Shown: positions 42,654 through 54,486 of the stretch, in pieces
Position numbering within the stretch: the first letter of the stretch is position 1
Layout: every line of letters begins with the position of its first letter
Assembly (NCBI GenBank): GCA_947588675.1
Contig: CANPYY010000005.1
Span: forward strand, 40,933 to 104,932
From: an uncultured Lachnospiraceae bacterium
GTDB taxonomy: Bacteria; Bacillota; Clostridia; Lachnospirales; Lachnospiraceae
Direction: 5' to 3'
Length of the DNA: 64,000 nt
Notes under the pieces: generated by a model
The model's input: only the letters and a program-made list of their open reading frames with translations
Told to the model about the DNA's origin: nothing
The model's database searches: none
Position numbers and translations under genes: made by a program

Positions 42654-43631
42654 ATGAACAGCATTTTAGAAGAAATATCAAACATAGGAATAGTTCCCGT
42701 AATAAAACTTGACGATGCGAAAGACGCCCTCCCGCTTGCAAAGGCGCTGTGCGAAGGCGGTCTTTACTGTGCAGAAATAACTTTCAGGACTTCCGCTGCC
42801 GAAGAATCAATAAGGCTTATAACAAAAGAATTTCCTGACATGCTTGTCGGAGCCGGAACAGTGCTGACTACAGAGCAGGTAAGCGATGCTGTAAATGCCG
42901 GAGCCCGTTTTATCGTAAGTCCGGGATTTAACCCTGATGTAGTAAAATACTGTATAGATAAAGATATTCCCGTAATCCCGGGATGCTCAACGCCAAGCGA
43001 TGTGGAACATGCAATCGCGCTCGGTCTTGAAGTGGTTAAATTTTTCCCTGCCGAAGCAGCAGGCGGTCTTCCGATGATTAAAGCAATGTCAGCGCCATAT
43101 ACCGGAGTAAAATTCATGCCGACCGGAGGAATAAATGCCTATAATATTAATTCTTATCTTGCATTTTCAAAAATAATTGCCTGTGGCGGCAGTTTCATGG
43201 TAAAGGACAATTTTATCAAAAACGGCGAATTTGATAAAATCACTGAACTTACAAGGCAGGCTGTAAATACCATACTCGGCTTTGAAATGGGTCATGTGGG
43301 AATTAACACTGACGGAAAGGATTGCGCTGATTTGCTTGCATCGTTTTTTGCATCCTCATTTGGATTTACCACAACGGACGCACCCGGAAAAGTTGGCTAC
43401 TTTGCCGGAAACGGAATAGAGCTCCTATATGACAGCAAAAGCTTTACAGGCGAAAAAGGACACATTGCAATACTCACTAATTCTGTAGAGCGCGCTATAT
43501 ATCATCTTGGCAAAAAGGGTATTGAATTTGAAGAAAAGACCGCGCGTTATGCAGAAGACGGCAAACGTACATTTATATATCTTAAAGGTCTGTACTCAGG
43601 ATTTACAATCCATCTTTCGCAAAAGAAATGA
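42654..43631 (+). CDS. KDPG/KHG aldolase fused to C-terminal VOC/glyoxalase-like domain
   Basis: EITFRTSAAEESIR, VGAGTVLT, IVSPGFNPDVVKYC, VKFFPAEAAGG, PTGGIN; C-terminus LGFEMGHVGINTDGKDCADLLASFFASSFGF. Confidence 0.9.
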   Translation: MNSILEEISNIGIVPVIKLDDAKDALPLAKALCEGGLYCAEITFRTSAAEESIRLITKEFPDMLVGAGTVLTTEQVSDAVNAGARFIVSPGFNPDVVKYCIDKDIPVIPGCSTPSDVEHAIALGLEVVKFFPAEAAGGLPMIKAMSAPYTGVKFMPTGGINAYNINSYLAFSKIIACGGSFMVKDNFIKNGEFDKITELTRQAVNTILGFEMGHVGINTDGKDCADLLASFFASSFGFTTTDAPGKVGYFAGNGIELLYDSKSFTGEKGHIAILTNSVERAIYHLGKKGIEFEEKTARYAEDGKRTFIYLKGLYSGFTIHLSQKK

Positions 43632-43780: not shown

Positions 43781-45154
43781 CTATCTTTTATCAAGCTCTT
43801 TATAATCTTTATGAACTCCAACAAACTTATAAGCCGGTCTTATTATCTTACCGTTATTGACAAGTTCTTCAAGCCTGTGCGCACACCATCCCGACATTCT
43901 TGAAATAGTAAATATCGGTGTAAACAGTTCTTCAGGAATCTCAAGCATTGAATATACAAGTCCGCTGTAAAAATCTACATTCGCACATACAGGTTTAAAC
44001 AACTGCCTTTGTATGGTAATAAGTTCAGAAGCAATCCTTTCTACGGTTTCATATAATTTGAACTCTTTTTCCCTGCCTTTTTCTACAGATAACTGCTTAG
44101 CATAATCTTTAAGGATAATTTTTCTCGGGTCAGATAATGTATATACCGCATGTCCCATACCATATATAAGACCTGCTCTATCAAACGCCTCCTTATTAAG
44201 GATTTTCATGAGATATTCCCTAATCTTATCTTCATCATCCCAGTCGCTTATATGTGCTTTAATATCAGCAAACATCTGTGTTACTTTCATATTTGCGCCA
44301 CCATGCCTCGGACCTTTAAGCGAACCTATGGACGCCGTTATTGCTGAATATGAATCTGTTCCCGTAGTGCTTACAACATGCGTGGTAAATGTAGAGTTAT
44401 TACCTCCTCCATGTTCTGCATGAAGTACAAGCGCCATATCAAGAATTTTTGCTTCAAGCGGTGTATATTTACCGTCATATCTTAACATCCTGAGTATATT
44501 CTCCGCTATTGAACAGCTTTTATCCGGATTGCGGATTACAAGCGTTGCATCCTTTTTAAAATGCAGATATGCATGATACGCATATACCGATATCAGCGGA
44601 ACTTTACTGATTAACTGAAGCGATTGCCTTAACACGTTAGGCACCGATATATCATCAGGGTTCGGATCATATGAATACAGCGTAAGTATTCCTTTCTGCA
44701 ATGCATTCATAATATTTGAACTCGGCGCCTTCATAATAACATCACGTACAAACTGCCCTGACAATTCCTGCATTTCCGCAAGTATCACTTTAAAACTTTC
44801 AAGCTGCTTTTCGTTTGGCAGTTCCCCAAACAACAGCAGATATGTAGTTTCTTCAAAACAAAACCTTCTCTTATCAAAATCCTTTACCAGTTCACATATA
44901 TTATATCCCTGATAATACAGTTCACCATCCGACGGTATCTTACGTCCCTCAATAGTTTTATATGAAACTACGTCTGATATTTCCGTAAGCCCTGTAAGCA
45001 CACCCTTACCATTGGCATCACGAAGTCCCCTTTTTACATCATATTCTTCGTACAGGTCCAGATTAATAGCTCCGGACGCCATACAGTACTGTACAAGTTC
45101 ATCGAATTGTTCCCGCGCTTTAGGTCCCATTTCCATAATTGATCTTTTCGCCAT
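43781..45154 (-). CDS. Citrate/2-methylcitrate synthase
   Basis: LVLHAEHGGGNNSTFTTHVVSTTGTDSYSAITASIGSLKGPRHGGAN; RBS AAGGGGGAATT before ATG 45154. Confidence 0.95.
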   Translation of the reverse strand: MAKRSIMEMGPKAREQFDELVQYCMASGAINLDLYEEYDVKRGLRDANGKGVLTGLTEISDVVSYKTIEGRKIPSDGELYYQGYNICELVKDFDKRRFCFEETTYLLLFGELPNEKQLESFKVILAEMQELSGQFVRDVIMKAPSSNIMNALQKGILTLYSYDPNPDDISVPNVLRQSLQLISKVPLISVYAYHAYLHFKKDATLVIRNPDKSCSIAENILRMLRYDGKYTPLEAKILDMALVLHAEHGGGNNSTFTTHVVSTTGTDSYSAITASIGSLKGPRHGGANMKVTQMFADIKAHISDWDDEDKIREYLMKILNKEAFDRAGLIYGMGHAVYTLSDPRKIILKDYAKQLSVEKGREKEFKLYETVERIASELITIQRQLFKPVCANVDFYSGLVYSMLEIPEELFTPIFTISRMSGWCAHRLEELVNNGKIIRPAYKFVGVHKDYKELDKR

Positions 45155-45276
45155 ATAATTCCCCCTTATTACAATAATCTGCATAAATAGCACCCTGCAT
45201 TTATGTATACGCTAGGTAAAAAAAATCGTGCCTCAGCTACGCTAACGCACAACATTGTCTTTACATATAATAACAT

Positions 45277-45308: not shown

Positions 45309-46262
45309 TTACATATTACATTTTATAAGTATTTCATTCCAGTTTTTATCAACTTCCTTCTGGAAATCTGCAAGAAGTTCTTCATTTTCCGGTTTGAACA
45401 AATGCCTGAATCTTCTCTGCGGTCTTAAAAAGTCTTCAATAGGCAGTTTCTTTTTCGGCGTATATGTCAGCGTCCATGTACCGTCAATCACTTCAAACAT
45501 AGGCCAATAACACGTATCAACTGCCAGTCTGCATATTTCCATCATATCCGATGTTTCATAACCCCATCCCCTCGGACATGGCGAAAGCACATTCAGGAAT
45601 GCCGGTCCCGGAGTATATATCGCCTTTTCTGCTTTGGTGTATATATCCTTGAAGTTACCTAAAAATGTTGTCTGTCCAACATACGGGATATGATGTTCCG
45701 CCATTATTGCCGCCAGGTCTTTTCTTACCTGTACTTTACCATTCTTTACCTTTCCCGCAGGAGTTGTAGTTGTATCGGCAAACCTTGGTGTTGCAGACGA
45801 ACGCTGTGTTCCGGTATTCATATATGCGCCGTTATCATAACATACATATACAAAATCATGTCCTCTTTCCATTGCTCCCGACATTGACTGGAACCCAATA
45901 TCATATGTTCCGCCGTCACCGCCGAAAGTAATAAACTTATATTCGCCTTTTATCTTTCCCTGTCCTTTAAGTACCCTGTAAGCCGTTTCAACACCCGACA
46001 TGGTCGCGCCTGCATTTTCAAACGCATTATGTATATAACTGTCCTCATATGCTGAATAAGGATACATATAAGAAGATACTTCAAGGCAACTTGTTGCATT
46101 TCCGACTACAGCCTTATCTCCCTCATGCAGGGAACGAAGCACTGAACGGACAGCAACAGCTCCGCCACAGCCGGCACACATTCTGTGTCCGGGTACAAAT
46201 CTGTCCTTTTTATTAATCATTTCCTCTTTAAAATTATATGATTTATTCATAACATTATCCAT
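45309..46262 (-). CDS. 2-oxoacid:ferredoxin oxidoreductase beta subunit (TPP-binding)
   Basis: GHRMCAGCGGAVAVRSVLR, FGGDGGTYDIGFQSMSGAMERGHDFVYVCYDNGAYMNTG. Confidence 0.93.
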   Translation of the reverse strand: MDNVMNKSYNFKEEMINKKDRFVPGHRMCAGCGGAVAVRSVLRSLHEGDKAVVGNATSCLEVSSYMYPYSAYEDSYIHNAFENAGATMSGVETAYRVLKGQGKIKGEYKFITFGGDGGTYDIGFQSMSGAMERGHDFVYVCYDNGAYMNTGTQRSSATPRFADTTTTPAGKVKNGKVQVRKDLAAIMAEHHIPYVGQTTFLGNFKDIYTKAEKAIYTPGPAFLNVLSPCPRGWGYETSDMMEICRLAVDTCYWPMFEVIDGTWTLTYTPKKKLPIEDFLRPQRRFRHLFKPENEELLADFQKEVDKNWNEILIKCNM

Positions 46263-46273
46263 TTGTAGCCACC

Positions 46274-47458
46274 TCACTCCCTAAGTCCGATATATCTGTA
46301 ATTATCTCTTACTTCATGTGTTTCTGCTATTCTGTAAAGTTCTTCATAAACCTTTTCAAAATCATCCGTAGTAATATCACGTCCACCAAGTCCATATATG
46401 TAATTTACAACTTCGGCATTCACTTTCGCGCGATATAATGCCGCAGTAACTTCGGCTCCAAGCGGTCCTCCGGTTCCCGAGAACATCTCGGAACGGTCAA
46501 GTATCGCAACGGCTTTTACTTTGCTTAACGCTGCCGCTATTTCTTCATCAGGGAACGGACGGAACACCCTTATCTTAACAAGTCCTACCTTTTTACCTGT
46601 AGTGCTTCTTATATGTTCTATGGCTGCTTTTGCCGTTCCCGCCGCAGAACCGATAACTACAACAGCATATTCCGCATCTTCCATTCTGTATTCTTCAAAG
46701 AAACCGTACTTTCTTCCTGAAATTTTTTCAAATTCCTCTGCTACCGAAAGAATAACCTTTCTGGCATTAAGCATTGCCTGTCTTTGTCCCCTCTTAGATT
46801 CCATATAATAATTGGATACTGCATAAGGTCCTATAGCCATAGGTTCTTTCTCATTAAGCAGAAAATGCTCCGGGTTTCGTTCTCCCACAAAAGCTTTTAC
46901 AAGTTCATCTTCAACAAGTTCTATATTCTCTACGCCATGGCTTGTTATAAAACCGTCCTGGCATATCATTACAGGCAGCATAACATCTTTATTTTCCGCT
47001 ATTTTAAATGACTGCAGGAAATTATCATAAGCCTCCTGATTCGACTCAGCATATATCTGAATCCAGCCGCTGTCCCTTGCTCCCATACTGTCGGAATGGT
47101 CGGCATTAATATTGATAGGTCCTGAAAGCGCCCTGTTCACAAGCGCAAGCACTATCGGAAGCCTGTCTGACGCCGCAACATAAAGTTCTTCCCACATAAG
47201 TGCAAGACCACACGATGAAGTTGCCGTAAGAGTTCTTGCGCCTGCCGCGGAAGCTCCTATTGCCGCACTCATAGAGCTGTGCTCGCTTTCTACATGAATA
47301 AATTCAGTATCTATATCTCCGTTTGCTATGTATGAAGCAACATACTGCGGTATTTCGGTAGACGGAGTAATAGGAAATGCCGGCATTACATCCGGATTAA
47401 TCTGTTTGATTGCATAGGCAACCGCTTCATTACCCGATAATCTTTCTCTTATAGACAT
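46274..47458 (-). CDS. 2-oxoacid:ferredoxin oxidoreductase alpha subunit
   Basis: GNEAVAYAIKQINPDVMPAFPITPSTEIP, HVESEHSSMSAAIGASAAGARTLTATSS. Confidence 0.93.
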   Translation of the reverse strand: MSIRERLSGNEAVAYAIKQINPDVMPAFPITPSTEIPQYVASYIANGDIDTEFIHVESEHSSMSAAIGASAAGARTLTATSSCGLALMWEELYVAASDRLPIVLALVNRALSGPININADHSDSMGARDSGWIQIYAESNQEAYDNFLQSFKIAENKDVMLPVMICQDGFITSHGVENIELVEDELVKAFVGERNPEHFLLNEKEPMAIGPYAVSNYYMESKRGQRQAMLNARKVILSVAEEFEKISGRKYGFFEEYRMEDAEYAVVVIGSAAGTAKAAIEHIRSTTGKKVGLVKIRVFRPFPDEEIAAALSKVKAVAILDRSEMFSGTGGPLGAEVTAALYRAKVNAEVVNYIYGLGGRDITTDDFEKVYEELYRIAETHEVRDNYRYIGLRE

Positions 47459-47461
47459 TCT

Positions 47462-47752
47462 TTACACCTCCATGCTTATTGCATCAAATGGACACACCTT
47501 GGCGCATATTCCACAGCCTTTGCAGTGATCCATGTCAAATTCTATTTTTTCATCTTTAGTAACAAGTATACTCATATCAGGGCATACAGGCACACAAAGG
47601 AAACAATCCCTGCATTTTTCAGAATTATGTACCGGTCTTTGCGTCCTCCACTCTCCCGTTTTAAATTCTCTCGATGTAGCAGCCTCAAAAAGCTTATTTC
47701 CTTCTGTTATGTCCTGCCATGGTGACTGTTCATTAATCTTATCGCCTATCAT
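47462..47752 (-). CDS. 2-oxoacid:ferredoxin oxidoreductase delta subunit (2x4Fe-4S)
   Basis: CRDCFLCVPVCPD and CKGCGICAKVCPF. Confidence 0.93.
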   Translation of the reverse strand: MIGDKINEQSPWQDITEGNKLFEAATSREFKTGEWRTQRPVHNSEKCRDCFLCVPVCPDMSILVTKDEKIEFDMDHCKGCGICAKVCPFDAISMEV

Positions 47753-48330
47753 ACTGCAACCTCCTCAAATGTCATACGAAGCGCATTCATATTACCATCT
47801 ATTACTTCAGGTTTTTTACTGAATTTATGTTTATATGAAGCCTCCATTTCATTAAGAAACTGTTCCTTATCCATAACCTTTGATACAGCTACGACTGCCG
47901 CAAGCATCGGTGAATTTGGAAAATACTTTCCAAGCGTTGCAACAGATATTTTCCTCGCATCAACAGTATATACCTTTCCTTTATAACCTCTAAGCTTTGG
48001 TATTATTTCCTGAGGCGGTTTTGCAGAATTTACTATTACCGCCCCTTCAGGATTCAACCCTGCCGTAACGTCAATTCCTTCAAGAAGGCCTTCGTCCACA
48101 ACTACAACATAATCCGGCTCATATATATTTGAATGAACCGTTATCGGCAAATCACTGATTCTGTTGTAGGCTGTAATAGGAGCTCCCATTCGCTCCGGAC
48201 CATATTCCGGGAATCCCTGAACATATTTTCCGGCTTTAAAGGACACATCGGCAAGTAAAAGCGCCGCTGTTTTAGCTCCCTGGCCTCCCCTTCCATGCCA
48301 TCTGATTTCAATAGTGTTTTTCAACTCCAT
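47749..48330 (-). CDS. 2-oxoacid:ferredoxin oxidoreductase gamma subunit
   Basis: IRWHGRGGQGAKTAALLLADVSFKAGKYVQGFPEYGPERMGAPITAY. Confidence 0.93.
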   Translation of the reverse strand: MELKNTIEIRWHGRGGQGAKTAALLLADVSFKAGKYVQGFPEYGPERMGAPITAYNRISDLPITVHSNIYEPDYVVVVDEGLLEGIDVTAGLNPEGAVIVNSAKPPQEIIPKLRGYKGKVYTVDARKISVATLGKYFPNSPMLAAVVAVSKVMDKEQFLNEMEASYKHKFSKKPEVIDGNMNALRMTFEEVAV

Positions 48331-48372: not shown

Positions 48373-48630
48373 AACAAAAAAACTCCGACCGCCCGTAAAC
48401 GGTAAGAGTTAAAGTTTCCAAAAATTCATTAAACCATCTACGACATACCATCATATGCGGCCCTATTTACGGCAGGCTTCCGTCAGCATTTACTTATACC
48501 TTTAATATACTTTCAACGCTGCAACTCAGGAGGGATGTTCAATTAGTTTCTACTTGTACCGCTTCCCAGCATATGCGGCTCTCTTTGACTTTCAAAACAA
48601 ATCTACTGTCTCCGTCACAGTCTTTATGTT
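48373..48630 (-). promoter_or_regulatory. T-box-like leader upstream of the oxidoreductase operon
   Basis: On minus strand: GACGGAGACAGTAGA, AGAGAGCCGC..GCTGGGAAGCGGTAC, GAACATCCCTCCTGAGTTGCAG, AGTAAATGCTGACGG...CCGT, degenerate T-box GATGGTATGTCG, terminator 48381-48410. Confidence 0.75.
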
Positions 48631-48763
48631 TAAATATTCAACTTTAAAAATGATTATATAAATAAGTTTTTGTTTTGTCAATAGTTTTTTCTATTGATTT
48701 TGAGAGGTTAAAGTGATAATATGTTACCGAAAAAAGGTTTTTATAACATGGAGGTAAATTATT

Positions 48764-54299: not shown

Positions 54300-54420
54300 G
54301 CTGCCTCCCTGTATATATACTGTTAGATATTATATTTTATTCATCAGTGCATGTAAGTGTTATAAGCATGTGACTGTCAGCCATATGTATTTCACATACT
54401 AACGCCTGACATAAATAAAA

Positions 54421-54460
54421 GGAGTTGCTGCAAAATAATTGTTTATTTTGCAGCAGCCCC
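54421..54460 (-). terminator. Terminator downstream of galM
   Basis: GCTGCAAAATAA/TTATTTTGCAGC stem followed by TTTTATTT on the minus strand. Confidence 0.78.
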
Positions 54461-54486
54461 TCTTTATTCCTACTCATATTATCGTA

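Follow-up and report, generated by a model that had tools for sequence, protein, structure and literature searches.

A T-box-type leader without the UGGN bulge upstream of porGDAB in the Lachnospiraceae, with a predicted response to tRNA-Ile

The porGDAB operon of an uncultured, gut-type Lachnospiraceae bacterium is preceded by an RNA leader that probably senses tRNA-Ile and controls the operon by antitermination, being derived from the isoleucine T-boxes of the Lachnospiraceae but stripped of the UGGN bulge and helix A2; this assessment leaves aside how the acceptor end of the tRNA is read. The leader lies in a window of 64,000 nucleotides (the whole stretch of DNA that was analysed), where it occupies the minus strand, flanked by porG and a divergent amino-acid ABC transporter (Table 1). 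In the prevailing view, contact between UGGN and the NCCA end of the tRNA is the unchanging core of amino-acid sensing by T-boxes. According to a review, UGGN is fixed next to helix A1 "in all known T-boxes" (PMC7583486), and TBDB describes the UGGN:NCCA pairing as controlling the regulatory logic (PMC7778990). Judged from its sequence, the porG leader is a real T-box homologue and very probably responsive to tRNA-Ile, yet the element that gives the class its name is missing from it.

The initial annotation had described a T-box-like leader with a terminator ahead of the gamma subunit gene, and both parts of this description were confirmed. The search that it had proposed with the Rfam T-box model RF00230 returned a significant match of 71.1 bits (E = 1.5e-15 over the region and 2.1e-13 over the whole 64-kb window), which is below the curated gathering score of 93 bits. 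The variant leaders L008 (58.8 bits) and L009 (62.9 bits) likewise fall below this cut-off, whereas canonical T-box leaders of por operons exceed it (L021, 113.6 bits; L029, 101.4 bits). A standard annotation run would therefore report nothing at the position of the porG leader. In the RF00230 alignment, Stem I, stem II and the IIA/B region are covered well while the antiterminator is skipped, and no further credible match to other Rfam families was found within the leader. Thermodynamic folding of the whole leader was uninformative (z = -0.76); that the leader goes beyond chance follows from the recurrence of the same elements in por leaders of other genera.

Table 1. Features of the porG leader and the porGDAB operon (positions in the window)
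Feature	Position	Strand	Evidence or remark
Sigma-A promoter TTGACA-17-TATAAT, upstream of leader	48653..48681	(-)	12/12 consensus positions
T-box-type leader	48627-48453	(-)	RF00230 covariance-model match
Stem I: AGTA/GAA loop-E side, specifier loop, CTCCTGAG	48520..48624	(-)	RF00230 alignment
Stem I AGAGAG	48584-48579	(-)	RF00230 alignment
Stem I apical CCGC:GCGG hairpin, UGGGAAG loop	48578-48559	(-)	RF00230 alignment
Specifier AUC (Ile)	48534..48536	(-)	AUC in each of 16 por leaders and in every ileS relative; flanks vary
Stem II CAGCGUU:AAUGCUG	48484..48521	(-)	RF00230 alignment
Stem II S-turn AAGUA	48495-48491	(-)	RF00230 alignment
IIA/B pseudoknot: ACGG:CCGU, loop GCCU pairing with GGGC (48463-48460)	48460..48483	(-)	covariation
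Stem III CGCAUA-UGAUGG-UAUG(U)CG	48441..48459	(-)	conserved in 14 variant leaders
UGGU in stem III loop	48450-48447	(-)	complementary to tRNA-Ile ACCA
Helix A1, 5' strand CGUAGAUGG	48434..48442	(-)	pairs with 48402-48394
Helix A1, 3' strand CCGUUUACG, inside terminator hairpin	48394..48402	(-)	pairs with 48442-48434
Intrinsic terminator AACUCUUACCG-UUUA-CGGGCGGUCGGAGUU and U run	48376..48410	(-)	terminator helix covaries across variants
porG (porC), gamma subunit	47749..48330	(-)	TIGR02175 210 bits, PF01558
porD, delta subunit, two 4Fe-4S motifs	47462..47752	(-)	TIGR02179 101.5 bits
porA, alpha subunit	46274..47458	(-)	best model NF040682 PorA_Arch 502.5 bits, below cut-off 550
porB, beta subunit	45309..46277	(-)	best model NF008819 pyruvate synthase PorB 338 bits, below cut-off 405

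Stem I carries the features noted in the initial annotation, namely AGAGAG, the GGGAAG apical loop and CTCCTGAG, and its elements are conserved in the por and ileS relatives. The S-turn of stem II and the IIA/B pseudoknot, two further traits that most T-boxes possess, are also found in the porG leader. Across 11 leaders, 98.9% of the cells in IIA/B are paired, a value as high being reached in none of 500 shuffles, and the second helix, between the loop and GGGC, is paired in 100%. One pair of this second helix is seen as U-A, A-U, G-C, G-U and U-G. This covariation identifies GACGG..CCGT, previously taken for stem III, as helix IIA of the pseudoknot. Similarly, the string TGGTATGTCG, which had been read as a degenerate T-box, belongs to stem III, forming its loop and 3' strand. 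The string GCCGCATATG is present twice in the leader, in the apical hairpin of stem I (48579-48570) and in stem III (48462-48452, minus strand), and alternative pairing is possible, CATATG being self-complementary.

The specifier codon of the leader is AUC, and leader comparison gives good support to isoleucine as the specified amino acid. The codon was located by a rule in which it is followed by N and then by eight nucleotides ending in a conserved GAG, calibrated on T-boxes of the same genome. Three further T-boxes were found in that genome with the RF00230 model, before ilvD, pheS and trpE; the rule reads UUC for pheS and UGG for trpE, the right amino acid in both cases, and GUA (Val) for ilvD. 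Applied to the por leader it gives AUC, and this codon recurs in RNAs of the same type that stand before ileS in other genera. In the 16 por leaders with a readable specifier loop, which come from many genera, any of the four bases may precede AUC and either C or A follows it. Because these flanks vary, no other triplet is invariant, which rules out CAU, AAC, ACA and UCC as alternative specifiers; the ATC (Ile) of the initial annotation thus stands, while the adjacent frames that it had kept in play do not. The por operons were gathered from the same family and from named genomes. Further leaders were sought with GAANAUC patterns, and in them AUC is invariant partly by selection; free of this bias are the first four por relatives, found with the Rfam model alone, and the ileS relatives, found with a stem III pattern. 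Isoleucine specificity therefore follows from the invariant AUC, the ileS relatives and the calibration on pheS and trpE. For the ileS-linked leaders the specifier matches the amino acid of the regulated gene, and for por the link to an amino acid is one that we infer.

In comparison with the class I T-boxes of RF00230 and with canonical ileS T-boxes (L180 and L197), the porG leader has in common the specifier loop of Stem I, the AGAGAG and apical loop, AUC, the stem II S-turn, IIA/B, stem III, a long helix A1 and the terminator. In the canonical relatives, however, stem III is followed by an antiterminator of A1, UGGU and A2, whereas the canonical AGGGUGGNACCGCG is absent from the porG leader, and neither there nor in its variant relatives is A1 followed by a UGGN bulge and helix A2. 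The initial annotation had overlooked this absence. Further differences from canonical RF00230 members, besides the lower score, are the UGNUGGU sequence of the stem III loop and a terminator loop whose sequence is conserved as the 3' strand of A1. When CGUARAUGG is paired with CCGUUUACG as helix A1, 93.7% of cells are paired over 14 variants, against 24-50% in slid controls, which refer to the whole structure. The A1 of L161 is a perfect, covariant helix of 9 bp (CGUGAUUGA:UCAAUUGCG), and in a few ileS leaders one or two positions fail to pair; covariation in A1 is modest, with both sides changed in two of the nine pairs. Canonical ileS leaders have a homologous long A1 (GUAAxAGG:CCUxUUAC) with covariation in 89 leaders, and at two outer positions 79-80% of leaders pair, compared with 46-53% after shuffling.

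The terminator helix of the variants covaries strongly while the terminator loop is nearly fixed, as expected if this loop is the other strand of A1. Antiterminator and terminator are mutually exclusive: the terminator hairpin contains the 3' strand of A1, and both helices are supported by comparison. A T-box hidden in the loop of A1 was ruled out, given that UGG is sporadic there, occurs at differing places and is absent from L008, L155, L071, L152, L158, L159 and L161. In L008, L073 and L155, the stretch from the leader terminator to the gene contains another terminator-like hairpin that has a T run.

In the proposed mechanism, Stem I and its AUC would bind tRNA-Ile (GAU), with stem II and the IIA/B pseudoknot acting as a brace. 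Uncharged tRNA-Ile would stabilise helix A1 and the terminator would be avoided, while with charged tRNA-Ile the terminator would form and por would be switched off. The most probable contact for the acceptor end would be the UGGU of the stem III loop, beside A1, in replacement of the missing bulge. This loop reads UGNUGGU in the variants with L156 (UGAUAGU) as the sole exception, and UGNUGG is present in all of the variants found through their genes without any pattern (9 por and 3 ileS), although the variant por leaders form one clade of the PorA tree (support 100/100) and these statistics overstate independence. In two relatives, tRNA-Ile(GAU) has the discriminator A73, and hence the end ACCA, the exact complement of UGGU; a pattern search for this tRNA in the window genome gave only tRNA-Met-like genes, probably owing to an assembly gap. 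The retention of UGNUGGU and its complementarity to ACCA suggest that contact with the acceptor end has passed to the stem III loop, a plausible relocation that we hold with somewhat less than even confidence. Of 41 canonical leaders whose stem III loop is just as short, 10 also have UGNUGG, and with a quarter of such leaders carrying it, the loop may serve another purpose.

On balance, the leaders slightly more probably than not represent a Lachnospiraceae class of isoleucine riboswitches without T-box bulge or A2, a class in which A1 alone would bring about antitermination and the acceptor end would be either read by the UGGU of stem III or not read. The disappearance of both UGGN and A2 from leaders that keep Stem I, stem II, IIA/B and A1, together with L156, which has neither the canonical UGGN nor a UGG in stem III, would suit a T-box that detects free tRNA-Ile (not bound to EF-Tu) by means of Stem I and stem II alone and does not touch the 3' end of the tRNA; we regard this as a minority possibility, as it leaves unexplained why the UGNUGGU loop is kept in nearly all variants. 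A little less likely is a degenerate canonical T-box, in which a short A1 of 6 bp (CGUARA:UUUACG) would leave the UGG of CGUARA-UGG (48436-48434) as a bulge to which the tRNA end binds. All por variants do have this UGG, immediately 3' of an A1-like strand as in canonical T-boxes, but most ileS variants no longer have it (UAGG, UUGA, UAA), and their bases at this site tend toward pairing with the terminator loop. Furthermore, the base in fourth position varies between U, A and G despite the A73 of tRNA-Ile, and no A2 helix follows. A decaying, non-functional relic, to which the score below the Rfam cut-off and the missing bulge might point, is very improbable in view of the consensus promoter, the covariation of the IIA/B, A1 and terminator helices, and conservation over about ten genera and three kinds of gene.

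The form without a T-box bulge was found in about ten Lachnospiraceae genera, before por, ileS and nucleoside phosphorylase genes. A pattern combining stem III and A1 matched in 15 of 396 genomes of the family (11 of 333 genera), and its reversed control had no matches. Thirteen of the 15 matches lack the T-box and precede por (five), ileS (six) or a PNP_UDP_1 phosphorylase gene (two), while the remaining two are canonical ileS leaders (L153 and L154). In a gene-driven survey of about 128 upstream regions of ileS, about 89 were canonical, with GGUGGN (a few of these matches being due to chance), one had AGUGGU, and three were without a T-box (L165, L166 and L266, the last divergent in A1). Among 388 genomes drawn from the taxonomic class, no variant was found outside the Lachnospiraceae, the only match being the window's own. 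The T-box-less AUC leaders before a PF01048 nucleoside-phosphorylase-like gene (L155 in genome G161 and L162 in G369, whose stem III lies at roughly 1501-1526 in the oriented locus) represent an unexpected isoleucine target.

The genes downstream of the leader, initially described as a four-subunit 2-oxoacid:ferredoxin oxidoreductase operon, were verified as porGDAB. Their subunit set and gamma-delta-alpha-beta order, which is constant across about 100 loci, are those of PorGDAB pyruvate synthase, and the best NCBIfam models for the alpha and beta subunits are the pyruvate-synthase models PorA and PorB, ahead of the 2-ketoisovalerate models. Unlike pyruvate synthase PorGDAB, the window subunits do not reach the equivalog cut-offs, and the predicted control by tRNA-Ile points to an isoleucine-linked use. 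Citrate synthase was rejected as a member of the regulated unit, because its position after por is confined to the genus of the window; its gene (43781-45193, minus strand) lies after porB there, and other genes take this place elsewhere. At 42654-43631 (plus strand), a KDPG aldolase domain and about 110 residues of another domain share a single reading frame. A strong inverted repeat at 54413-54468 (minus strand) is probably a terminator or small repeat element, and its weak match to mir-8186 is surely due to chance as a family assignment.

Isoleucine T-boxes of the canonical kind also precede por operons, for example in Faecalicatena contorta (L136) and Dorea sp. (L121 and L140). These leaders share the operon, AUC and the IIA/B pseudoknot with the porG leader, but carry AGGGUGGUUGCGG with A1 and A2. 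In the PorA tree, por genes with variant leaders and most of those with canonical T-boxes form two separate supported clades, and the Stem I sequences differ between the two kinds of leader, so that isoleucine control of por must have arisen at least twice. Such repeated recruitment argues for a use of porGDAB in isoleucine supply and gives good support to an isoleucine-linked role. The anabolic, isoleucine-linked role put forward in the initial annotation thereby gains indirect support, as it does from the separate NifJ-type PFOR of the window genome, whereas the reductive carboxylation of 2-methylbutyryl-CoA offered as an example is not favoured, since the subunits fit pyruvate-synthase models better than 2-ketoisovalerate models. 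Given this preference, formation of 2-oxobutyrate from propionyl-CoA, or of pyruvate, fits at least as well. Several anaerobes are reported to carboxylate propionyl-CoA to 2-oxobutyrate in a ferredoxin-dependent manner (cited in PMC7476758), and this reaction suits a POR-type enzyme; conversion of 2-methylbutyryl-CoA to 3-methyl-2-oxovalerate, or simple pyruvate supply, are possible alternative uses. The window genome also encodes a threonine ammonia-lyase, and no citramalate synthase above the cut-off was found in it. Additionally, it has no match to a citramalate/isopropylmalate synthase of LeuA size, while a 556-aa frame of the sister species (G269) gives such a match; this absence reflects either loss or an assembly gap.

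In the open-licence literature, no paper was found that describes a ferredoxin oxidoreductase under T-box control or a T-box lacking UGGN, an absence that is weak evidence. As the variant is missed at the Rfam cut-off, the T-box regulons of the Lachnospiraceae are probably undercounted. A natural class without UGGN that occurs beside canonical siblings on the same genes offers a direct test of the extent to which the discriminator is needed and of whether it can be relocated. For the metabolism of these bacteria, the repeated recruitment of isoleucine T-boxes ties the ferredoxin-dependent porGDAB to isoleucine supply, which may proceed, for example, from propionyl-CoA and CO2 to 2-oxobutyrate.
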